Assembly: GCA_025057275.1 (NCBI GenBank)
Contig: JANWXQ010000059.1
Location: forward strand, 1-64,000
Origin: Chitinophagales bacterium
GTDB taxonomy: Bacteria; Bacteroidota; Bacteroidia; Chitinophagales; UBA10324
Length of the DNA: 64,000 nucleotides
Direction: 5' to 3'
Shown here piece by piece: positions 41,371 to 57,338 of the stretch. The notes under the pieces are model-generated. The model did no database searches. It had not been told where the DNA came from and was given only the letters and a program-made list of their open reading frames with translations. The translations under genes and the position numbers were made by a program. Every line of letters starts with the position of its first letter. Position 1 is the first letter of the stretch.

Positions 41371-42765
41371 ATGTCTAATTGGTTGATCGGTTTTTTATGT
41401 GTCTGGCTGTGGCAAACCCAGGCGTTGGGTTTATCGGTAGTAATTGAGGTGGTTTCCCTTCCCTCCAATACACCAGCCAGCGATCCTATTTACATTGCCG
41501 GAACTTTCAATGGCTGGAATCCCGGCCATCCCTCGTACCAGCTCATGCCACCGGGCGGCCCTGCCTACAGCATTACGCTGCAGGGCACCGGCACCATTGA
41601 GTTCAAATTTACCCGGGGCAGTTGGTCCAAAGTGGAATGTCAGGCCGATGGTTCCTTTCTGCCCAACCGGCAGTTCACCTTCGGCTCTGCTGATACTTTG
41701 CAGGTTGCCATTGCTGCATGGGAGGACCTGCTCGGTGCCAGCTCGACTGCCCTGCCCAACGTGGTGCTGCTTTCCGACAGCTTTTTTATTCCCCAACTAA
41801 ACCGATACCGCAGCATCTGGTTGTACCTGCCGGATGATTACTACAGCGCGCCCGACAAACGCTATCCCGTTTTTTATCTTCAGGACGGGCAGAATGTTTT
41901 TGACGAGGCCACAGCCTTTGCCGGTGAATGGCAGGTAGATGAAACCCTGCATGCATTGGAGCTCAGCGGTGATGCCGGTTGCATAGTAGTGGCCGTGGCC
42001 AATGGCGGTGTAAATCGCATAGAAGAATATTCCCCATGGGTGAATCCATTGTATGGCGGCGGCCAGGGAGACGCCTATGCTGAATTTTTGGCTCAGGTGC
42101 TTAAGCCCTACATTGATGCCCATTACCGCACCTTTCCGCAGCGTGATTTCACCGCTATCGGAGGCAGTTCTCTGGGCGGGCTCATAGCCTTTTACACTGC
42201 ACTGAAATACAACGACGTCTTCAGCAAGGCGGCCGTGTTTTCTCCTTCTTTTTGGTTTGATGATTCGGTGGAACTTTTTGTTGCGGCCCACCAGAAATCG
42301 CACCCCATGCGCATTCGTTTTGTGGCCGGCTATCCGGAAAGCAGTTCCATGATCCCCGAAATCCGCAGCGTCTACGGTTTGCTTCGACAGGGCAGCTACA
42401 GTGAACAGGAACTGGATACTTCTTTTCATTGGGACGGGCAGCATGCCGAATGGTTCTGGGCTCGGGAATTCGGCCCCACCTATCTGTGGTTGTTTGCTTC
42501 ACAGGATGCTGTGGGATCAACAACAACATCGGCAGTGCGCCTGATTCCTCAGCCTGCTTTTGATCAGGTGGTCATCAGCGGCAGCTTGCCTTACGGCCAG
42601 CCATTGCAGGTGCGTATCTACGATTCCTCCGGCGTGCTTCGCCGCACCCTTTCCTGTCGGGCAGGTCAGCCCGTTGATCTGGGCAGCTTGCCTTCCGGAG
42701 TTTATCAAATGCAGGTGATGGTGGGCAGAAAGCGTTACGAAACGCCGCTGGTGCTGATTCGCTGA
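41371..42765 (+). CDS. T9SS esterase (alpha/beta-hydrolase) with N-terminal CBM-like domain
   Basis: 464-aa exported esterase. Signal peptide (1-20), a starch-binding-like beta domain (about 25-115, motif YIAGTFNGWNPG typical of CBM20/48 folds), an esterase domain of the putative-esterase D/Fes type (about 125-380) with nucleophile Ser267 in GGSSLGG, and a C-terminal sorting domain (about 390-464). The sorting domain is divergent: IPQPAFDQVV where the other cargo has YPNP. It may deacylate polysaccharides; the substrate is not known. It is divergent from the hemerythrin gene. Confidence 0.86.
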   Translation: MSNWLIGFLCVWLWQTQALGLSVVIEVVSLPSNTPASDPIYIAGTFNGWNPGHPSYQLMPPGGPAYSITLQGTGTIEFKFTRGSWSKVECQADGSFLPNRQFTFGSADTLQVAIAAWEDLLGASSTALPNVVLLSDSFFIPQLNRYRSIWLYLPDDYYSAPDKRYPVFYLQDGQNVFDEATAFAGEWQVDETLHALELSGDAGCIVVAVANGGVNRIEEYSPWVNPLYGGGQGDAYAEFLAQVLKPYIDAHYRTFPQRDFTAIGGSSLGGLIAFYTALKYNDVFSKAAVFSPSFWFDDSVELFVAAHQKSHPMRIRFVAGYPESSSMIPEIRSVYGLLRQGSYSEQELDTSFHWDGQHAEWFWAREFGPTYLWLFASQDAVGSTTTSAVRLIPQPAFDQVVISGSLPYGQPLQVRIYDSSGVLRRTLSCRAGQPVDLGSLPSGVYQMQVMVGRKRYETPLVLIR

Positions 42766-47433: not shown

Positions 47434-50400
47434 ATGAAAGCCATTAACCCCCGTGGCATTCGCTGCGCATTACTGTGTTTGATCATGCAGGCTTCATGGA
47501 GCGAAGGAACTTTCGCTCAGGTGCTTGGCGTAGAGCTTTCCACCCGCAGAACGTTGCCTCCGCATTTTCTGGGCTACAATGGCCAAAACGTTATTCGCAA
47601 CGGATCATCTTGGGTAAATCCTAACCTGACGGCCAACGTACCCCAACTGAGAGCCAAGGTGTATCGTTATCCTGCAGGGGGCATAGGCAATTGGTGGGAC
47701 TGGCGGCGTGGCTGGTTTGTGGATGTTCCGTACCTGCCTTCCAATTACAAAAATCTGCCCCGCCAGCCCAATTACCTGCATAACTATAAAGCTGTGGCTG
47801 ATGCTACGGGGGCTCAGACGGTGTTCATGCTGAACATGGTCACCTCCACGCTGCAGGAGCAGTTGGCCATGCTCCGTCATGCCGATTCCCTAGGATTTGA
47901 TGTCAAATATGTCGAGCTGGGAAATGAATTCTTTATCTCCGCCGACGACGAAGATGCCGGCGAAGGTTCGGTGTACGTGGATTCTGTTTTCAAATACGTT
48001 AAGACGTATGCCGATATGGCCAATATCTGGATAGATTCCATTCATGCGCATTTTCCTAATGCTTTGGTAGCTGTACAGGGATGTTTCCAGAAAAACAAAA
48101 AGCCCAAGCGACTGAAATGGAACGATTCCCTGCGCATATTGCTGAATGGCCGGGAAGATGCCTGGAGTTTTCATACTTATTATTCATCGGCCTGGAACGA
48201 TACTACGGAAACCGTGGCCGATAAGCAGGTGCAAACCCTGGACGAAGTGCCCAACTGGTTGTACCAGCCGTTTAAGATGTGGCGCGTGTTTAAGGAGCGA
48301 ACCCTGCCGCAAATTCCTCCCGGAAAGCAATTCTGGAACACGGAATACAATATGACCGACCACGACCGGCCTGTGCACGGCCTTTGGGCTCATGGCTTGT
48401 ATCTACCGGTTCAGACCTTACAATTCCTGAATGAAGAGCGGTTTAAGATCCTGAACTGCCACGCCATGGTGGGCACAGCTTTGTATGGGCAGTATTTTTT
48501 TGTTACCAATGGCTTTTATCTCGGAGGTGAGGATGGCGACTGGACCCCCCTGCCCAATCCGCCGTCCACACAGTTTTATGGCCTGACCGCTACCGGTCAC
48601 AATATGAAGATGCTGGGCGAAGCCATGTGGGGCAAGAGTTATGCTTCTCCCCTGGTATTTACTCCCACGCCCCAGATCATGACCACCGAAGATTACGGTG
48701 CATCGGTGTATTACTACCCCGCAGTGTATGGTTGGTTATTCAGCAGCGACACCGCTTCGGCAGCCGTGATATATAATTTGTCTGATACCTCCCGTGAAAT
48801 TTATACTTCCCTTTTCGGCTCGGGGAGTTTTTTGCAGAAGTATGCGCCTCCCCTTCGTCCCATAGCGCGTAACGATAGTGTAACGGTTGTCAGTGGCACA
48901 TTGGGTTCCACCTTAACGCTTCCTCCCTATTCTTCCACAAAAATTCATTGCTCCTTTATCCCCCAACCACCACCTACGGTTGATATTACCGTTTTAGGCA
49001 ATACGACTATCTGCGCCAACCAAACCACCACATTGGATGCCGGAGCAGGCTATGTTCGCTACGTGTGGTCTACCGGCGATACCACCCGAACCATTACGGT
49101 AAACACTTCAGGCAATTACTGGGTTCGGGCTTACGCGGTTCCCGGAGGATACTATGCTGCCGACACAGTAAGCATTACTGTTAATCCTACCCCCAAGCGG
49201 CCAAACATTGTGCCACAAGGCACGCGTTCTTTCTGTCAGGGAGGTAGCCGCCTGGTGATTCCCACATATTCGGGGGCTTCACCCACCGGCATAACCTACC
49301 TGTGGAACTCCGGCGACACCACTACCAATCTGGTGGTGACACAAGGTGGGGCCTATTGGGTCGTCATTACTGACCAAAACGGCTGCACGGCGGTTTCGGA
49401 TACTGAAGTATTTACCGTTCATCCGCTTCCCAGCCCAACGATTACCGCTAACGGCCCTACTGCATTTTGTTATAATCAGAGCGTTACCCTTTCGGCTCCG
49501 CCCGGTTACACAAGCTACAGCTGGTCGCCCAGTGGCTTTGGACAGACCCGCACGGTGACGCAATCCGGCACCTACTTCGTTACGGTAACCGATACCAACG
49601 GCTGTACCGGTCAAAGCAGCAACTCCATAACCGTTACCGTTTACGACTTGCCCACGCCTACTGCTTCTACCGTTGGAGGCGGTCCTCAGTTTTGTTCCGG
49701 CGCGGGGGTGTATTTAACGGCCAGTCCGTCGGGGTATAATTACCAATGGCAGAAAAATTCCATCAACATCACGGGAGCTACCCAGCAGAATTATACTCCT
49801 ACGGAAAACGGACCCTATAGGGTGGTGGCTACCGATGCTTACGGTTGCAGCCGCACGTCTTCGCCGGTTAACATTACCATTTACCCCTTGCCAACTCCCA
49901 ATATAGTGGTTACCGGCGGTACGAACATCTGTCAGGGTCAAAGCACGACGCTGAGTTCCAACAACACCTACGTTTCGTATTTATGGAGTACCGGCCAGAC
50001 GACATCATCCATTTCCGTATCGACTTCGGGCACCTACTTTCTGACCGTTACCGATAACAACGGCTGTGTAGGCACTTCTTCCGGCCGAACCATCACCGTG
50101 AATCCGAATCCGGTGCCTACCATAGTTGCTCAGGGGCCTACGGAGTTTTGCGACGGAGGAAGTGTTACCCTGCAGGTTACTCAAACCTACAATAGCTACA
50201 ACTGGTCAAACGGTACAGTCGGCCAGTCCAGAACCTTTTACGATAGCGGTACTTATTGGTGCACGGTAACCGATGCCAACGGTTGCACCGGTGTTTCCAA
50301 CTCCATTACAGTCACAGAATACATTCTGCCGATACCGAATATTTTTACCAGCACCGGTCAAACCGCCTGGTGTACCGGAGCAGGAGTATTCCTGTCCACC

Positions 50401-53331
50401 AGTGTTACCGGCTATAATTATCAGTGGCAACTTGGAGGTGCTAATATCAGCGGGGCTACCAATCAGTCGCATACGCCTACGAGCGGTGGAAATTATCGCG
50501 TGGTCATTTCCAACTTCTTCGGTTGTACCAAGCGTTCCGATCCGCTCAGCATTACTCTTCATGCCCTGCCAACTCCTTCCATCACAGTGACGGGAGGAAC
50601 CAGCATCTGCGAAGGGCAATCTTCTACTTTGTCTACCGGAACCTATGTAAGTTACCTGTGGAGTACGGGTGCCACCACGCAGTCCATTTCGGTGAACACC
50701 ACGGGCACTTACTTCGTTACCGTTACCGATGCCAACGGCTGTGTAGGCACTTCCACCGGCCGAACCATCACCGTGAACCCGAACCCGACGCCTACCATCA
50801 TTGCATTGGGAAATACGGACATCTGCCAGGGCAGCAGCGTAACGCTTCAGGTAACGCAGACCTATAGCAGCTACAATTGGTCTAACGGCACGGTGGGTCA
50901 GAGCAAATCGTTCAGTCAGAGCGGCACATACTGGTGTACCGTGACCGATGCGAATGGCTGCACCGGTGTTTCCAATTCCATAACCGTTACCGTTCACTCC
51001 GTCCCTACACCTACTGTGTCCTCCAGCACTGGCCAAACCACGTTTTGCAGTAATGCCGGCGTTTATCTGATTGCCAGCCCATCGGGGTATAACTATCAAT
51101 GGCAGAAATCGGGAGTGGACATGCCGGGCGAAACCAACATTACACATACCCCGACCTCCACGGCCAACTACAGGGTTCGCTTGTCTAACTGGTTGGGTTG
51201 TTCAGCAACTTCTTCAGCGCTTTCGATAACCGTTAATACAGCGCCAAGCCCCACCGTAAACATCACCGGTAACACGGTTCTGTGCAACGGTCAGACTGCT
51301 ACGCTCACTTCGGCCCAGAATTATTCGGCCTATCAGTGGTCCACCGGAGCAACTTCCAAGTCCATTACGGTCAGCACAGCGGGCACTTATGTTCTGACAG
51401 TTACATCCTCTAACGGATGCACGGCATCGGCAGCTCCTGTGGTTATAACTACTTCTATTCCTAACGTAACCATTTCGGCTTCCGGTCCTTTAACGTGGTG
51501 CGGATCCGGCAGCGTAACGCTTTCTGCTCCTGCCTATTCCAGCTACCAGTGGAGTACGGGCGCAACTACCCAGTCCATTGTAGTTACCACTTCAGGCACC
51601 TATTCCTGTACCGTTACCGATGCCAACGGATGTACAGGAACTTCCAATTCTGTAGTGGTTTCGGCGGGAAGTAACCTGACACCGGTAATAGCCTCCTCCA
51701 ATGGCACCAGTCTTTGCACCGGACAATCCACTGTATTGTCCACCACACAGTCGTTTCATGCCTACCAATGGTCCACCGGAGCCACCACATCCACCATCAC
51801 CGTAAGCCAGGCAGGAACCTACACCGTCACGGTAACCGACGCCGCTGGTTGTACGGGTGTTTCTTCACCCATAACGATTACCACGGTTAGTTCGTTGTCG
51901 CCTGTTATTACAGCAGGCAGCGCTACCAAATTCTGCACCGGAGGGTTTGTGGTGCTTTCTGTGTCGCAGCCATTTGCTTCGTATCAATGGTCCAACGGCG
52001 CTACCACTCAGTCCATTACTGTAACCACTTCGGGTACCTATTCCTGCACAGTAACAAATGCCGGGGGATGCACAGGAACGTCCAACAGCATAACGGTGAG
52101 TGTGGTGAGCAGCCTGGATAAGCCGGTCATCGTCAGCAGTACAGGAACGAATGCCTGGTGCGAAACAGCAGGTGCATTCCTTTCCACAACGGCCACCGGC
52201 TACAGTTATCAGTGGTCGCAGGGAAGTACCAATCTCGCCGGGGCAACCAACATCAACTATACGCCTACAGCCAGCGGTACCTATAAAGTGCAAATAACCG
52301 ATAATGCCGGCTGCACCAAAAAATCCGATGGATTTTCAGTTACCATCAACAAAAATCCAAATCCTACCATTACCGTTACGGGAGGAACAGTGATTTGCCA
52401 TGGGCAAACGACCACCTTGTCCGCAAATAAGGATTATGCTTCTTACCTGTGGAGCACGGGCGCTACGACCAAAAGTATAGTGGTCGGTTCCTTAGGTACC
52501 ACCAGTTACTCGCTCACGGTAACGGATGCCAACTCGTGCACAGGGAGTACCACCAGCCCAACAACCGTTACGGTACATCCCAAGCCGGTAGCGACCATAA
52601 CGGCTTCCGGCCCGCTGAGCTTCTGCGATGGCGGCAGCGTTACCCTAACGTCCAATTCGGCCAGCTCCTACAAATGGTCCAATGGCAAGACGACGCAGTC
52701 CATTGAAGTAACAGCCAGCGGAACATTCAGCGTTACCATTACGGATGCCAATGGCTGCAAGGACACGTCGGATGCGGTAACGGTCACCGAGTGGATATTG
52801 CCGGAACCTACTGTTACGTTAACCGGCCCTGCAACCTACTGCAGTAGCAGCCCGTCCACTTTATCTACCATTTTTGGTTCCTATTCCTATCAATGGCAAA
52901 AGGGCAGCAGCAATGTGGCAGGCGCAACCAACCGAACCTATCAACCGACATCCAGTGGTACGTACAAGGTACAGATAACCGATGTCAACGGTTGTACCAG
53001 AAAATCCGCTACCGGCGTGAAAGTAACGGTGAATAACTGTCGCGAACAGGAAGATCCGGAAGTCCAGGAACCCGTGCTGGTGGTTTATCCCAACCCCTCA
53101 GCAGGCACGGTCACGCTGCGCACCAATCTGTTTGACAGCAACGAAGCCATCTATCATCTGGAGATTTACAATCATGTCGGTCAGTTGATGCTGCGCGAAC
53201 GGTTCGTAGTTGCACCGGGAACCACGTCCGTTCGCATTGACCTGTCTCATAGGATTGCGGATGGTATTTATCTTTTGCAGGTACGTAGCTCGGCCCAGGT
53301 GGCGCGACAACGGATAACGTTGCTGCATTAA
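47434..53331 (+). CDS. Giant T9SS glycoside-hydrolase-like protein with 18 Ig-like repeats
   Basis: 1965-aa exported protein from the ATG at 47434 (the frame opens at a TTG 57 bp earlier). Parts: signal peptide 1-29 (ending TFAQ); TIM-barrel-like glycoside-hydrolase domain about 30-510; 18 Ig-like domains of 70-80 residues at about 515-1870; type A sorting domain at about 1883-1965 with VVYPNPSAG. The catalytic candidates are Glu165 (ELGNEF) and Glu304 (WNTEYN), spaced as acid/base and nucleophile in clan GH-A; RYPAGGIGNWWDW precedes them. The precise GH family and substrate are unknown to me. A paralogue with 5 repeats lies downstream on the same strand. A bidirectional terminator follows the stop. 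Confidence 0.88.
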   Translation: MKAINPRGIRCALLCLIMQASWSEGTFAQVLGVELSTRRTLPPHFLGYNGQNVIRNGSSWVNPNLTANVPQLRAKVYRYPAGGIGNWWDWRRGWFVDVPYLPSNYKNLPRQPNYLHNYKAVADATGAQTVFMLNMVTSTLQEQLAMLRHADSLGFDVKYVELGNEFFISADDEDAGEGSVYVDSVFKYVKTYADMANIWIDSIHAHFPNALVAVQGCFQKNKKPKRLKWNDSLRILLNGREDAWSFHTYYSSAWNDTTETVADKQVQTLDEVPNWLYQPFKMWRVFKERTLPQIPPGKQFWNTEYNMTDHDRPVHGLWAHGLYLPVQTLQFLNEERFKILNCHAMVGTALYGQYFFVTNGFYLGGEDGDWTPLPNPPSTQFYGLTATGHNMKMLGEAMWGKSYASPLVFTPTPQIMTTEDYGASVYYYPAVYGWLFSSDTASAAVIYNLSDTSREIYTSLFGSGSFLQKYAPPLRPIARNDSVTVVSGTLGSTLTLPPYSSTKIHCSFIPQPPPTVDITVLGNTTICANQTTTLDAGAGYVRYVWSTGDTTRTITVNTSGNYWVRAYAVPGGYYAADTVSITVNPTPKRPNIVPQGTRSFCQGGSRLVIPTYSGASPTGITYLWNSGDTTTNLVVTQGGAYWVVITDQNGCTAVSDTEVFTVHPLPSPTITANGPTAFCYNQSVTLSAPPGYTSYSWSPSGFGQTRTVTQSGTYFVTVTDTNGCTGQSSNSITVTVYDLPTPTASTVGGGPQFCSGAGVYLTASPSGYNYQWQKNSINITGATQQNYTPTENGPYRVVATDAYGCSRTSSPVNITIYPLPTPNIVVTGGTNICQGQSTTLSSNNTYVSYLWSTGQTTSSISVSTSGTYFLTVTDNNGCVGTSSGRTITVNPNPVPTIVAQGPTEFCDGGSVTLQVTQTYNSYNWSNGTVGQSRTFYDSGTYWCTVTDANGCTGVSNSITVTEYILPIPNIFTSTGQTAWCTGAGVFLSTSVTGYNYQWQLGGANISGATNQSHTPTSGGNYRVVISNFFGCTKRSDPLSITLHALPTPSITVTGGTSICEGQSSTLSTGTYVSYLWSTGATTQSISVNTTGTYFVTVTDANGCVGTSTGRTITVNPNPTPTIIALGNTDICQGSSVTLQVTQTYSSYNWSNGTVGQSKSFSQSGTYWCTVTDANGCTGVSNSITVTVHSVPTPTVSSSTGQTTFCSNAGVYLIASPSGYNYQWQKSGVDMPGETNITHTPTSTANYRVRLSNWLGCSATSSALSITVNTAPSPTVNITGNTVLCNGQTATLTSAQNYSAYQWSTGATSKSITVSTAGTYVLTVTSSNGCTASAAPVVITTSIPNVTISASGPLTWCGSGSVTLSAPAYSSYQWSTGATTQSIVVTTSGTYSCTVTDANGCTGTSNSVVVSAGSNLTPVIASSNGTSLCTGQSTVLSTTQSFHAYQWSTGATTSTITVSQAGTYTVTVTDAAGCTGVSSPITITTVSSLSPVITAGSATKFCTGGFVVLSVSQPFASYQWSNGATTQSITVTTSGTYSCTVTNAGGCTGTSNSITVSVVSSLDKPVIVSSTGTNAWCETAGAFLSTTATGYSYQWSQGSTNLAGATNINYTPTASGTYKVQITDNAGCTKKSDGFSVTINKNPNPTITVTGGTVICHGQTTTLSANKDYASYLWSTGATTKSIVVGSLGTTSYSLTVTDANSCTGSTTSPTTVTVHPKPVATITASGPLSFCDGGSVTLTSNSASSYKWSNGKTTQSIEVTASGTFSVTITDANGCKDTSDAVTVTEWILPEPTVTLTGPATYCSSSPSTLSTIFGSYSYQWQKGSSNVAGATNRTYQPTSSGTYKVQITDVNGCTRKSATGVKVTVNNCREQEDPEVQEPVLVVYPNPSAGTVTLRTNLFDSNEAIYHLEIYNHVGQLMLRERFVVAPGTTSVRIDLSHRIADGIYLLQVRSSAQVARQRITLLH
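48970..53040 (+). repeat. 18 tandem Ig-like (CHU_C-associated type) domains
   Basis: Each unit has the pattern PxPxI...GxxxxCxG..VTL....YxWSTG.TT..I.V..SGxYxVTVTDxNGC. Seventeen carry a second Cys (NGC-type), predicting one disulfide each; the first domain lacks it and has GGYYAAD in its place. Units 4, 7, 10, 15 and 18 are a second type with YNYQWQK and a YTPT strand. Confidence 0.85.
49654..51006 (+). repeat. Tandem duplication of a three-domain unit within the Ig array
   Basis: Domains 4-6 (49654-50331, 678 bp) and 7-9 (50332-51006, 675 bp) correspond one to one. Domains 5 and 8 share CCGGCCGAACCATCACCGTG and nearby sequence exactly 675 bp apart (50061 versus 50736). Domain 10 begins a third copy at 51007. 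Confidence 0.75.
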
Positions 53332-53356
53332 CAATCAGCAAAACCGCCCATGCAGT

Positions 53357-53384
53357 AAAGGCACAGCCTTGCGCTGTGCCTTTT
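53357..53384. terminator. Bidirectional rho-independent terminator
   Basis: An 11-bp perfect stem, AAAGGCACAGC (53357-53367) and GCTGTGCCTTT (53373-53383), with loop CTTGC, followed by T. It sits between the convergent giant gene and the CARDB-like gene and serves both strands; the last base overlaps the minus-strand stop codon. Confidence 0.8.
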
Positions 53385-54130
53385 CAGTCTGCTATGGTAA
53401 ATCGGAAAGCAGCCCTTTTAGTGCTGTGCCTCTGTTGAACCAAAGCCACGTAGGCTGAAGGAGGCAAATGGTGTACAGGCACCACACAGCCTTGCGCCTG
53501 TTGCTGCACAGAAACGGGCATCTGCTGCCCGAACAGATTGAGAATAACCACCTCCCCGATGTGGCCTCCGTTCTGTATGCTGATCCAGCACTGCTTCTGT
53601 TCGGCATTAAAGGAAAAGGAGATCGCATCCTGAGGCGGATCGGATAATCCTACAGCACATGTGAGATACAGGGGTTGGCCAAATATGCCTGCATTGTTGC
53701 TTTCGTTCAGCTCCACCACTTTGTCGTGTGGATCAACTGAATAACCGATAAATATGGGATCCGGGCCCCGGTAGGTGTTGGGTATGGTACTCAGCAGTAA
53801 GGAATCACAAAAATTAAAAACGGTATCCAGCTCGGTGGTGTCGTTGGCGTACAAAAAAAATCCGGCTTTCAGGTAAAACAGCAATTGGCTGGGAATCAAC
53901 AGGGCGGTTTTTCCCACGTATATGCCTACGTCCATGTTGCAGCAGGCCGGGAGGGTGCCCTTGTTGATTACTTTAAGCGATATGGAAGTCCAGTCGGGAT
54001 CGCCATCGAAGTGAACCGCAAACTGCTCTACAAACAGATCGGCCTGACTTCGTACCTCGCCGGCTTGAAGGCAAAATGCCACAAAAAGCCAGGCACGAGG
54101 AAAAGTAAACCCGAAGCGAAAGCGTAACAC
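53384..54130 (-). CDS. Secreted CARDB-like protein with degenerate T9SS-type C-terminus, 248 aa
   Basis: Exported protein whose only early start is GTG at 54130; no ATG suits. A hydrophobic N-terminus (AWLFVAFCLQAGEVRSQ) looks like a signal peptide. Residues about 35-150 resemble a CARDB/APHP-type beta-sandwich (SLKVINKGTLPACCNMDVGI, VVELNESNN). The C-terminal 80 residues keep the shape of a sorting domain (VVILNLFGQQMPV, then YVALVQQ) but lack the YPNP motif (SFNAEQKQC in its place). It is convergent with the giant gene and divergent from its paralogue. Function unknown; export by T9SS is uncertain. Confidence 0.68.
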   Translation of the reverse strand: MLRFRFGFTFPRAWLFVAFCLQAGEVRSQADLFVEQFAVHFDGDPDWTSISLKVINKGTLPACCNMDVGIYVGKTALLIPSQLLFYLKAGFFLYANDTTELDTVFNFCDSLLLSTIPNTYRGPDPIFIGYSVDPHDKVVELNESNNAGIFGQPLYLTCAVGLSDPPQDAISFSFNAEQKQCWISIQNGGHIGEVVILNLFGQQMPVSVQQQAQGCVVPVHHLPPSAYVALVQQRHSTKRAAFRFTIAD

Positions 54131-54342
54131 CTAATTAACCCCTGATTAACCTCTACCGCCATACCGCGGCATGGGTCGTGCAAGATAATACACCTCACCT
54201 AACCAGGAACAACTGACTTTGACTCAATCGCTTTTCCGTTAAAAAAAATTAAGTTCTTTTTCCCGACCGGTGACCCAATGGGTCGTTAGTAAATGAAAGT
54301 AAAAGGTAAAAAAAATTTTACGGAAAATACCCCAAAAGGAGG

Positions 54343-54373
54343 TTGATTTTCTGGAAAAGGATTTGTACTTTGC
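54343..54373 (+). promoter_or_regulatory. Putative promoter of the second giant gene
   Basis: TTG (54343-54345), a 20-bp spacer, then TACTTTGC (54366-54373), a -7-like element one base short of TAnnTTTG. The expected start site is about 20 bp before the ATG at 54396. The 265-bp upstream region also holds GACCC-AAT-GGGTC (54272-54284) and runs of A and T. Confidence 0.45.
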
Positions 54374-54395
54374 CGCTGCCTACAAACCGACCCCC

Positions 54396-57338
54396 ATGCA
54401 AGTCACCCCCCTCAGCGCTCTTGGTGTTTGCTTTCTGTTCCTCTTGTTTCTTTCCGACCTGCAGGCGCAGAATCATACCATGTCATTGGGCTACCGCCGC
54501 TCAATTAACCCCGATTGGATAGGCTACAACGGTCAAAATATGGTTCGGGATTCACTAGGGTGGTCCAATCCGTATCTATTGTCCAATCTGCCTAAGCTGC
54601 GCCCCAAAATCATCCGGTACCCGGGCGGCGGCGTAGCCAATTGGTGGGACTGGCGCGAAGGCTGGTTTGTTAATCACCCCTTGTTGCCCAGCGCCTATGT
54701 GAATGCGCAGCGCAAAGACAATCGCCTGGATAAGTTTAAACTGGCGCTCAATGCCACGGGCGCCACGCCCATTTTTGTGCTCAACATGATCTCTTCCACG
54801 CTGCAGGAGCAACTGGCCATGCTGCGTCATGCCGATTCGCTAGGTATTCCTGTAAAATATGTGGAATTAGGTAATGAGTTCTACCTGGACGGTGGCGAAG
54901 ATTCGGTAGCTATCATGCAGGCATTTCCCACTGCTGCCGTGTATGCCGAGGTTTCTGCCCAATGGGCTGATTCCGTACACAAGTATTTTCCTTTAGCCAA
55001 AGTGGCCATTCAGGGAGCGTTCAACCGAAACAATGCCCCCCGGCGCATTACCTGGGATGAAACCCTTTTTCCGCTTATGCGCGGACAGAATGCCATATCC
55101 TATCACAGCTATATGGCTGCTGCCGCCGCTGATGAAAACTATCAGGCAACCTCTGGTACGTTTACCGTTTCTGAAGTGCCTACCATGCTCTCGCGGCCTT
55201 TTACCATGTGGAAGATCCTAAGCACCGAAGACTTCCCCCTTGTTCCGCCGGGCAATGATATCTGGATTACTGAATTTAATCTGCGCGACAAAACCAAACC
55301 CACTCAGGGCTGCTGGGCTCATGGGCTTTTTGCCGCTACCCAAACCCTGCATTTTCTGAATGAACCCCGTATCAAGCATTTGTCTTTTCATGCTATTTCC
55401 GGAACAGCTGTTGCGGGTTGCTTCTTTTTTAATACCAATGGTTATGAATTTGGCGGCGATGGCAATTTTATTCCTCCCACGCCTTCTCCCGGTCCCACCA
55501 AATACTGGGGTAAGACCGCTGCAGGCATCACTATGGAGCTGCTTGGGCTGGCCTTGAAGGATGCCAATTACGTTTCTCCTCTTGAGTTTACCCCCAATCA
55601 ATACATCACCGTCACTGATGGTGCTAATACAGTGACATATCCGGCTCTGTACGGCTGGGCTTTTGAGAAGAACGATTCATTCCATGTAGTCATTCTGAAC
55701 TTGTCGTCTAACGAATTGAAAGTAAAGACGGATTACTTGTTCCCGGGCTCCAGCAAATACATCCGCTATTCTGCTGAGCCGTTGCTCTATGTAACCAACG
55801 ACGCTCAGGTAACCTACAAATCGGCTACCCCATCTGCCAATTATTCGGCCAAAGCGTATTCCATAACGCACATCCGTTCGGCCGTGCTACCTGCCCCGCC
55901 TCCTTCCGTGGATATGGTCGTGAACGGAGCTACTACTTTCTGCAGCGGCGGTTCGGTGGAGTTGGATGCCGGCGCCAACTATCTGGAATACCTCTGGAGC
56001 ACCGGAGCTACTACCCGAAAAATTACTGCCACTACCAGCGGCACCTACTGGGTGCGTGTGCGTAACGTAACCGGCGGTTACTGGAGTGCAGATACGGTGG
56101 TCATTAATGTATTGCCCGCTCCGGAAAAGCCCAAGCTAAACACCGTTTCCAATACCGGCTTCTGTCAGGGGGAAAGCATTACCCTTTCTGTAAAAAACCC
56201 ATCTCCGTCGTTAACCTATCAATGGACTGGTGGCGCTACAGGCACTTCATTTACGGCCACGAATGGAGGCACTTACACCGTTACAGCCACTGATTCCAAC
56301 GGCTGTTCCTCAACCTCCGATGGCATAACCTTGACCCGATATCCACTGCCTACCCCGGTCATTTCTCCGGCAGGCCCCATCAACACCTGTTACAACCAAT
56401 CCGTGACCCTGGATGCCGGTCCTGGTTATAAATCCTACACCTGGTCCAATGGCAAAACCGGTCAGACCCTTAAAGTGGACGTCACTGGTTCCTACAGTGT
56501 CACGGTCAAAGACAACAACAATTGTCAGGGAACTTCTACTGCCGTTTCGGTGACAGTTCATGAGCCTGTAACACCGGTCATTTCCATTGTCGGCCCATCG
56601 GCATTTTGCGAAGGCTCATCGCCCACTTATTTGCAGGCTCCTGCCGGTTACAGCTATCAGTGGCAAAAAGGAAGTAACATCCTTCCTGGTGAAACCAAAC
56701 AGAAATATTATCCGACCACCGGCGGCAATTACCGCGTTACCATTACCGACGCCTACGGTTGTACCAAAAAATCGGAATCCGTGAACATTACCGTTCACTC
56801 TAAGCCCTCCACCAAGATTACCCTGCCCGCAGGTCAGGATAAAAAAATCTGTGAAGGTCAGGAAACCGTAACCCTTTCGGCCAAAAGCTGCGCGGGTTGT
56901 ACCTATCAGTGGAAGAAAAACGGGAACAACATCAACGGCGCAACCAACATCAGCTATACGGTCAGCACTGCCGGCGATTACAGCTACAAAGTAACCGATG
57001 CCAACGGCTGCACCAACACTTCCAAGACTACAACCATCACCAACAACTGCCGCCAAGGCGATGAGTTGATTGCCGCGGCTGGTGACGTCAGATTATATCC
57101 CAACCCGGCAACTGATTACATGCATGTGGAACTCCAATTACCTGAAGACATCACATCGGTTCAGATCGCCGTCTTCAGTATGATGGGACAAATGCTATGG
57201 ATGCAACCCCCGCAGCCTGTTGAATCCGTCCGGCATCTAACCCTTCATACGGCACATCTGCCTGCCGGCATGTATTTGCTGCGCGTGAGTTACGACGGCG
57301 GTATGGTGGTGAAGCGTTTTGAAATTCTGAGGCGGTAG
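54396..57338 (+). CDS. T9SS glycoside-hydrolase-like protein with 5 Ig-like repeats
   Basis: 980-aa paralogue of the giant protein upstream. The frame opens at a TTG (54363) inside the promoter; the ATG at 54396 gives a signal peptide (MQVTPLSALGVCFLFLLFLS, ending LQAQ). Glycoside-hydrolase domain about 26-500 with IRYPGGGVANWWDW, Glu161 (ELGNEF) and Glu293 (WITEFN); then five Ig-like domains (about 505-885); type A sorting domain with RLYPNPATDY. Domains 1-4 align in order with domains 1-4 of the larger protein. Domain 5 has four Cys. Family of the barrel is uncertain. The stop is 7 bp from the end of the minus-strand oxidoreductase gene. Confidence 0.87.
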   Translation: MQVTPLSALGVCFLFLLFLSDLQAQNHTMSLGYRRSINPDWIGYNGQNMVRDSLGWSNPYLLSNLPKLRPKIIRYPGGGVANWWDWREGWFVNHPLLPSAYVNAQRKDNRLDKFKLALNATGATPIFVLNMISSTLQEQLAMLRHADSLGIPVKYVELGNEFYLDGGEDSVAIMQAFPTAAVYAEVSAQWADSVHKYFPLAKVAIQGAFNRNNAPRRITWDETLFPLMRGQNAISYHSYMAAAAADENYQATSGTFTVSEVPTMLSRPFTMWKILSTEDFPLVPPGNDIWITEFNLRDKTKPTQGCWAHGLFAATQTLHFLNEPRIKHLSFHAISGTAVAGCFFFNTNGYEFGGDGNFIPPTPSPGPTKYWGKTAAGITMELLGLALKDANYVSPLEFTPNQYITVTDGANTVTYPALYGWAFEKNDSFHVVILNLSSNELKVKTDYLFPGSSKYIRYSAEPLLYVTNDAQVTYKSATPSANYSAKAYSITHIRSAVLPAPPPSVDMVVNGATTFCSGGSVELDAGANYLEYLWSTGATTRKITATTSGTYWVRVRNVTGGYWSADTVVINVLPAPEKPKLNTVSNTGFCQGESITLSVKNPSPSLTYQWTGGATGTSFTATNGGTYTVTATDSNGCSSTSDGITLTRYPLPTPVISPAGPINTCYNQSVTLDAGPGYKSYTWSNGKTGQTLKVDVTGSYSVTVKDNNNCQGTSTAVSVTVHEPVTPVISIVGPSAFCEGSSPTYLQAPAGYSYQWQKGSNILPGETKQKYYPTTGGNYRVTITDAYGCTKKSESVNITVHSKPSTKITLPAGQDKKICEGQETVTLSAKSCAGCTYQWKKNGNNINGATNISYTVSTAGDYSYKVTDANGCTNTSKTTTITNNCRQGDELIAAAGDVRLYPNPATDYMHVELQLPEDITSVQIAVFSMMGQMLWMQPPQPVESVRHLTLHTAHLPAGMYLLRVSYDGGMVVKRFEILRR
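55900..57050 (+). repeat. Five tandem Ig-like domains of the paralogue
   Basis: Same pattern as the 18-repeat array. Domain 1 likewise lacks the second Cys and has GGYWSAD. Domain 3 shares CYNQSVTL with domain 3 of the larger protein, and domain 4 is of the YSYQWQK type as in domain 4 there. Confidence 0.85.

Follow-up and report, generated by a model that had tools for sequence, protein, structure and literature searches.

The window, a 64,000-nucleotide stretch of a contig from a Chitinophagales bacterium, carries on its forward strand two related genes, A (47434-53331; ATG at 47434, stop at 53331, 1965 amino acids) and B (54396-57338; ATG at 54396, stop at 57338, 980 amino acids). Both proteins are laid out alike: a hydrophobic, signal-peptide-like N-terminus, recognised by inspection (MKAINPRGIRCALLCLIMQASWSEGTFA at 47434-47517 in A, MQVTPLSALGVCFLFLLFLSDLQA at 54396-54467 in B), is followed by a barrel of ~485 residues (47518-48975 and 54468-55904) and a run of Ig_7-type domains, and each protein ends in a type IX sorting domain (53050-53331 and 57057-57338, stop codon included). 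An earlier note on this DNA had described paralogues with a similar barrel and 18 Ig domains against five. The barrels are indeed 45% identical, domain HMMs find the same 18 and five Ig domains, and the note's coordinates, frames, motifs and total of 23 domains all hold. Whole-protein scores for Ig_7 (PF19081, CHU_C-associated Ig-like) are 97.2 bits for A and 45.0 for B, at a gathering cut-off of 27.3. In the first Ig domain of each array the place of the NGC motif is taken by GGYYAAD in A and GGYWSAD in B, leaving a single Cys that is kept in 12 of the 13 family members described below; CYNQSVTL in domain 3 and YQWQK in domain 4 are present in both proteins, and the fifth domain of B likewise belongs to the inserted-loop (YQWxK) length class. 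Between A and B lies a minus-strand gene (53384-54130) with a weak CARDB match, of which a 51% identical copy is found at the same-genus locus and none at the corresponding locus of genome G003. Close to the pair, at 41371-42765, is an esterase (PF00756) whose T9SS sorting domain scores just at the cut-off.

The sorting domains of A and B are matched by TIGR04183 (41.4 and 39.7 bits, cut-off 23) and by Pfam PF18962 (37.2 and 43.6 bits, cut-off 27), and the genome encodes the secretion system, with a PorU sortase at 1352 bits, SprA_N at 515 bits, and over 120 matches to the sorting domain that pass the cut-off. We infer that A and B are enzymes that reach the cell exterior through the type IX secretion system, presumably to be anchored at the cell surface. 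Between the two species of the genus, the sorting domains of A and B have a dN about four to seven times that of the rest of the proteins.

The nature of the enzyme has to be read from remote similarity, as no Pfam or NCBIfam family reaches its cut-off on the barrel and a PDB search with a single barrel sequence gave no significant match. A profile of 12 barrels does match GH51, at E=3.9e-6 to 3s2c over positions 37-233 (hmmsearch), mainly in the N-terminal half, and the barrel motifs follow the order of clan GH-A: RxPGG, then an acid/base Glu in GNE, then a nucleophile Glu in TE(Y/F)N. E141 and E273, numbered on the first sequence, are invariant across the 12 aligned barrels, and the residue preceding the acid/base Glu is N, S or E. 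By these motifs the putative acid/base and nucleophile would be Glu165 (codon 47926-47928) and Glu304 (codon 48343-48345) in A, and Glu161 (codon 54876-54878) and Glu293 (codon 55272-55274) in B. An AlphaFold2 model of the barrel built from 4 sequences reached a pLDDT of 33. The barrel thus resembles the GH51 alpha-L-arabinofuranosidases (PDB 3s2c, 4atw, 3ug3) in profile and motif order but differs from them in standing outside the Pfam and NCBIfam families; alignment, profile and motifs together point to a GH51-like, clan GH-A type hydrolase. The same genome has two more barrel paralogues (contig C23, 79714-81078, and contig C56, 1051-2433), with large, differently built flanks and no X-Y-Z stalk of the kind described next.

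Relatives of the pair and the order of their Ig domains

Relatives were sought in 16 genomes of the bacterial family and 299 genomes of the order. Proteins that combine the barrel with Ig domains number 13 and come from six of the 16 family genomes; the 299 order genomes gave no further comparable match, the barrel proteins found there being more remote and for the most part shorter, and a GTDB contig scan returned a same-genus genome as its sole match. Eight of the 13, spread over all six genomes, are short forms with exactly five Ig domains each, and the other five are long forms with 11, 17, 18, 18 and 26. The earlier note had proposed looking in relatives for other repeat numbers, and 5, 11, 17, 18 and 26 are what the family offers. 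The same-genus genome (G001; the genome of the window is G000) carries the same pair, with 18 and five domains, so that the long protein has 18 in each of the two species of the genus. The long gene adjoins glyA in G000, G001, G003 and G008 (18, 18, 17 and 26 domains), the short gene is followed by an RND pump gene in G000, G001 and G004, and a long/short pair is present in another genus too. Given the pair in the same-genus genome and these shared neighbours, the two genes probably came to lie together before the genus arose.

In all five long proteins, A included, domain self-similarity peaks at lag 3, with none of 2000 shuffles of domain order scoring as high (p<1/2000 for each); mean identity is 0.37-0.41 (~39%) between neighbours and 0.51-0.56 (~53%) between third neighbours. 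A tree of 130 domains sorts them into classes. The position 1 domains form a clade (100/95, 13 members), as do class X (97/93), made up of domains 5, 8, 11 and so on and confined to long proteins, class Z (99/90), made up of domains 4, 7, 10 and so on, and class F (100/97), made up of last domains, while class Y is less well supported. The training sets for class HMMs were the long arrays from G003, G007 and G008, the F domains of short forms, and, for class 1, all members. By these the usual order is Z-(XYZ)n-F, the short form being the case n=0 (domains 1-2-3-Z-F), and copy numbers of 11, 17 and 26 fit 5+3k.

A reads 1-Y-Y-Z-XYZ-XYZ-XY-XYZ-XYZ and breaks the rule twice, with an additional X-Y pair and no F, both of which recur in the same-genus genome. 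Its first four domains are Ig1 (48976-49203; class 1, with one Cys and no NGC), Ig2 (49204-49437), which is nearest class Y by 4 bits only, Ig3 (49438-49659; Y) and Ig4 (49660-49899; Z). Then come two X-Y-Z triplets, Ig5-Ig6-Ig7 (49900-50577) and Ig8-Ig9-Ig10 (50578-51252), the extra X-Y pair Ig11-Ig12 (51253-51684), and two further triplets, Ig13-Ig14-Ig15 (51685-52365) and Ig16-Ig17-Ig18 (52366-53049), the last directly before the sorting domain. Margins are small around the pair, at 4 bits for Ig12 and 8 bits for the assignment of Ig13 to X, and the tree groups Ig13 with Ig12 and Ig14 and not with X. Either of the two X-Y pairs could be the additional one. In B, Ig1-Ig4 (55905-56813) comprise a class 1 domain, a second domain with no clear class, a third in the Y-like position-3 group and a fourth of class Z, and Ig5 (56814-57056) sits within the F clade.

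The end of the array in A bears on how the two proteins are to be compared. Ig18 is Z by 42 bits in the class HMMs and lies within the Z clade of the tree, and it is 0.56 identical to the penultimate Z of the 17-domain protein of G003 and 0.29 identical to that protein's last (F) domain; an AU test on the single-domain alignment of 80 columns is still compatible with class F for A18 (p=0.26). By HMM class and tree, loss from A of the terminal F, which B and the other long forms retain, is strongly indicated and most likely, though short of proof. If A has no F, the fifth domain of B has no counterpart in A, and one further domain in B against fourteen in A would be more than a plain difference in number at one end.

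Arrays of this kind invite the concern that short-read repeats were collapsed or inflated, a concern the earlier note had itself raised, and the genome is indeed in 108 contigs, which probably reflects a short-read assembly. But a separate genome has the same 18 domains in the same order, each of the 18 finding its best match at its own position there (76-93% amino acid identity); the longest exact DNA repeat within the array of A is 22 nt, and no two of its domains exceed 71% identity in DNA. On the strength of the same-genus match and the short exact repeats we reject an artefact, which has next to no chance of explaining the array. Tandem Repeats Finder detects no DNA repeat in the array of A. 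Between G000 and G001 the array is conserved in number and in sequence, unlike a hypervariable repeat: dN stands at 0.10-0.125 in the Ig domains, against 0.08 in the barrel and 0.48 in the sorting domain, with synonymous sites so saturated that the dN/dS ratio has no value for most regions.

The same stalk beneath other heads

A stalk search with triplet 1 of A as the query found the array order beneath heads other than the barrel. One protein (L085) has ten Cu-binding_MopE motifs, no barrel, and a stalk that reads YZ(XYZ)4F, and a second MopE-like protein (L089) has FZ(XYZ)2F. Another (L086, 1-4452) has a stalk of Z(XYZ)3F below a head that looks hydrolase-like by eye only, from a GVSHNGFG serine motif and with no Pfam match; L087 (2-2695) is a partial relative of it and L088 a fragment, and L086 and L087, with this Pfam-unmatched head on an X-Y-Z stalk, come from two other genomes. 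Non-barrel arrays that run into contig ends read YYZ(XYZ)2F and ZXYZ. With the same class HMMs the X-Y-Z order was absent from four Ig arrays of other families in the order. Downstream of the window on its own contig (C52, 73300-76770), a 2647-residue Ig_7 protein with a sorting domain likewise has no X-Y-Z order.

L085 also records how such arrays can lengthen. Within it a unit of 666 nt, three domains long, matches the following unit at 90% identity from end to end, and a further ~430 nt matches a third copy at 90-100% identity for most of its length, with a longest exact repeat of 110 nt. This is direct evidence for tandem duplication with a three-domain period, in a MopE-like relative and not in the barrel family itself. 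The near-identical, recently duplicated three-Ig units of this MopE-like T9SS protein lie at L085:3321-5086 (contig C2 of G003).

How stalk length has changed

The earlier note had the larger gene growing from the smaller by insertion or duplication after domain 4. The extra domains do lie there, but the unit in which they come is the X-Y-Z set and not the single domain. We envisage that whole three-domain units of ~666 nt would be gained and lost by in-register recombination between domains of the same class, which would leave most arrays at 5+3k; a B-type protein would be the case n=0, and A would have four triplets, the additional X-Y pair and a missing terminal F. The order Z-(X-Y-Z)n-F-sorting domain would then be a grammar fixed in this bacterial family.

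If a five-domain, B-like ancestor had been extended once after domain 4, in the lineage of A itself and with no other change, one might expect the position of the extra domains, as well as the eight relatives in six genomes with exactly five. One might also expect A to end in F, which it does not by either HMM or tree, and the long barrels to form a clade, which an AU test rejects (p=3e-5). In the best tree, moreover, the X domains of all long proteins are one class and do not derive from each protein's own domain 2, although a separate origin of the X domains of G007 from its own domain 2 was not rejected (AU p=0.09, on an 80-column alignment), and a long/short pair in a second genus is hard to fit to growth within one lineage. 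We consider such a single extension improbable. Growth in one direction from five to 18 domains is too simple and is not supported as stated, as the short forms are no barrel clade either (AU p=1.6e-40), the short form of G008 looks like a collapse, and the pair probably predates the genus.

As neither the long nor the short forms are a clade on their barrels, length must have changed repeatedly or stalks must have been exchanged, and as X is one class across all long forms, the choice lies between a single origin of the triplet with several later losses and a movement of stalks from gene to gene. In the barrel tree the 11-domain protein of G007 groups with the short forms of that genome, and the short form of G008 is sister to its 26-domain protein (94-97% bootstrap); we regard the former as a candidate stalk exchange and the latter as a candidate collapsed long form. 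Collapse could be general, if the long form were ancestral and domain 4 recombined with the last Z, deleting all triplets and always leaving 1-2-3-Z-F. This would account for the five domains of every short form, and it suits the short form of G008, whose domain 4 clusters with a Z from inside the array of the 11-domain protein of G007 (95/84) and whose barrel is sister to a long form. Yet seven of the eight short forms have their domain 4 in a single clade (98/91), a pattern that speaks for one old short lineage rather than many collapses, and the outgroups differ in architecture and give no polarity, so that we hold general collapse to be doubtful.

It is also possible, at somewhat less than even chances in our judgement, that stalks have been swapped as modules between genes by recombination, with barrel and stalk length having separate histories. 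The Z-(XYZ)n-F stalk does occur beneath MopE-like and hydrolase-like heads, and the 11-domain protein of G007 is 0.66 identical in its barrel and 0.64-0.72 in domain 2 to the short forms of its own genome, while its domain 4 is nearest to long forms. Against this, crossing points are weakly supported on domains of 80 residues, and repeated gain and loss could produce part of the pattern. The suggestion that domains 1-4 of A and B pair in order stands in part. Domain 1 pairs clearly (the clade at 100/95), most copies of domain 3 share a clade with weak support, domain 4 shares a class with no specific pairing, and no clear pairing is seen for domain 2 (AU p=0.37).

A possible spacer beneath a surface enzyme

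Tandem Ig domains extend ~4 nm each, at which the stalk of B would be ~20 nm long and that of A ~70 nm. The natural reading of the longer array, as the earlier note had it, is that it puts more distance between enzyme and sorting domain, and the most likely role is that of a variable-length spacer that places the GH51-like enzyme off the outer membrane. The stalk is a general carrier, common to several head domains, and its length would set the distance of the head from the outer membrane. The account we find fairly probable as a whole is that T9SS-exported, GH51-like enzymes are mounted on a shared Z-(XYZ)n-F stalk that varies by triplets and would serve as a spacer.

Alternatively, the Ig domains could be carbohydrate-binding or self-assembly modules, with length setting avidity, or with chains bundling as the GhpA hook may. 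A structure model of Ig3-Ig7 (pLDDT 88) has Ig stretches of GhpA as its nearest solved structures (E 4.5e-22; by sequence E 2e-139), and the array is under purifying selection, as judged from the low Ig dN beside saturated dS. But an identity of ~24% and a common Ig_7 ancestry are enough to account for the GhpA match, and we think binding or bundling less likely, if realistic, alternatives. GhpA (PDB 9flp and others; Lien et al. 2024, cited in PMC12421860) is the grappling hook protein of Aureispira, a bacterium that preys with the help of T9SS. It shares with A a long Ig-like array, and is the best match of the stalk in structure and in sequence; it differs in its 5898 residues and its distant sequence, and no barrel match was seen in it.

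Other known systems share parts of this design. Bacteroidetes are known to have fibrillar adhesins that carry a Por_Secre_tail (PMC8286594). The nearest concept is that of Periscope Proteins (Whelan et al. 2021, PMC8201768), bacterial surface proteins whose N-terminal functional domain projects to a distance set by the number of copies in the tandem array that bears it. A and B similarly have an N-terminal head on a tandem array as a variable stalk. Periscope Proteins, however, have highly similar domains, within-species variation and a host-ligand-binding head, whereas in the family of A and B an enzyme forms the head, neighbours are ~39% identical, similarity recurs with a period of three, and copy number differs from genus to genus. 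For nebulin-type super-repeats, autocorrelation has shown that arrays grow several domains at a time, often from within (Bjorklund et al. 2006, PMC1553488), and the A family resembles these in having its autocorrelation peak above lag 1, at lag 3 in five proteins. It differs in being a bacterial T9SS surface protein with a three-domain unit, and in that the block is also found beneath unrelated heads. Our searches of an open-access library found no paper that describes the three-class X-Y-Z stalk.

Variation in repeat number on bacterial surfaces has mostly been described for near-identical domains; here unlike neighbours are kept while length moves by threes, and the arrangement is reused under different heads. 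We tentatively speculate that X-Y-Z is a selected grammar, in which three classes whose interfaces fit one another have to alternate; the cassette would be interchangeable between enzymes, proteins with metal-binding motifs and others, and n would be tuned for each head. The barrel family offers a natural length series, with n = 0, 2, 4 and 7 and the irregular form of the window, partly at one positionally conserved locus, which allows tests of stalk length against the surface enzyme and of neighbour dissimilarity against folding. If the selected grammar proves to be true, the surface proteins of one bacterial family would share a standard mount that can be adjusted.
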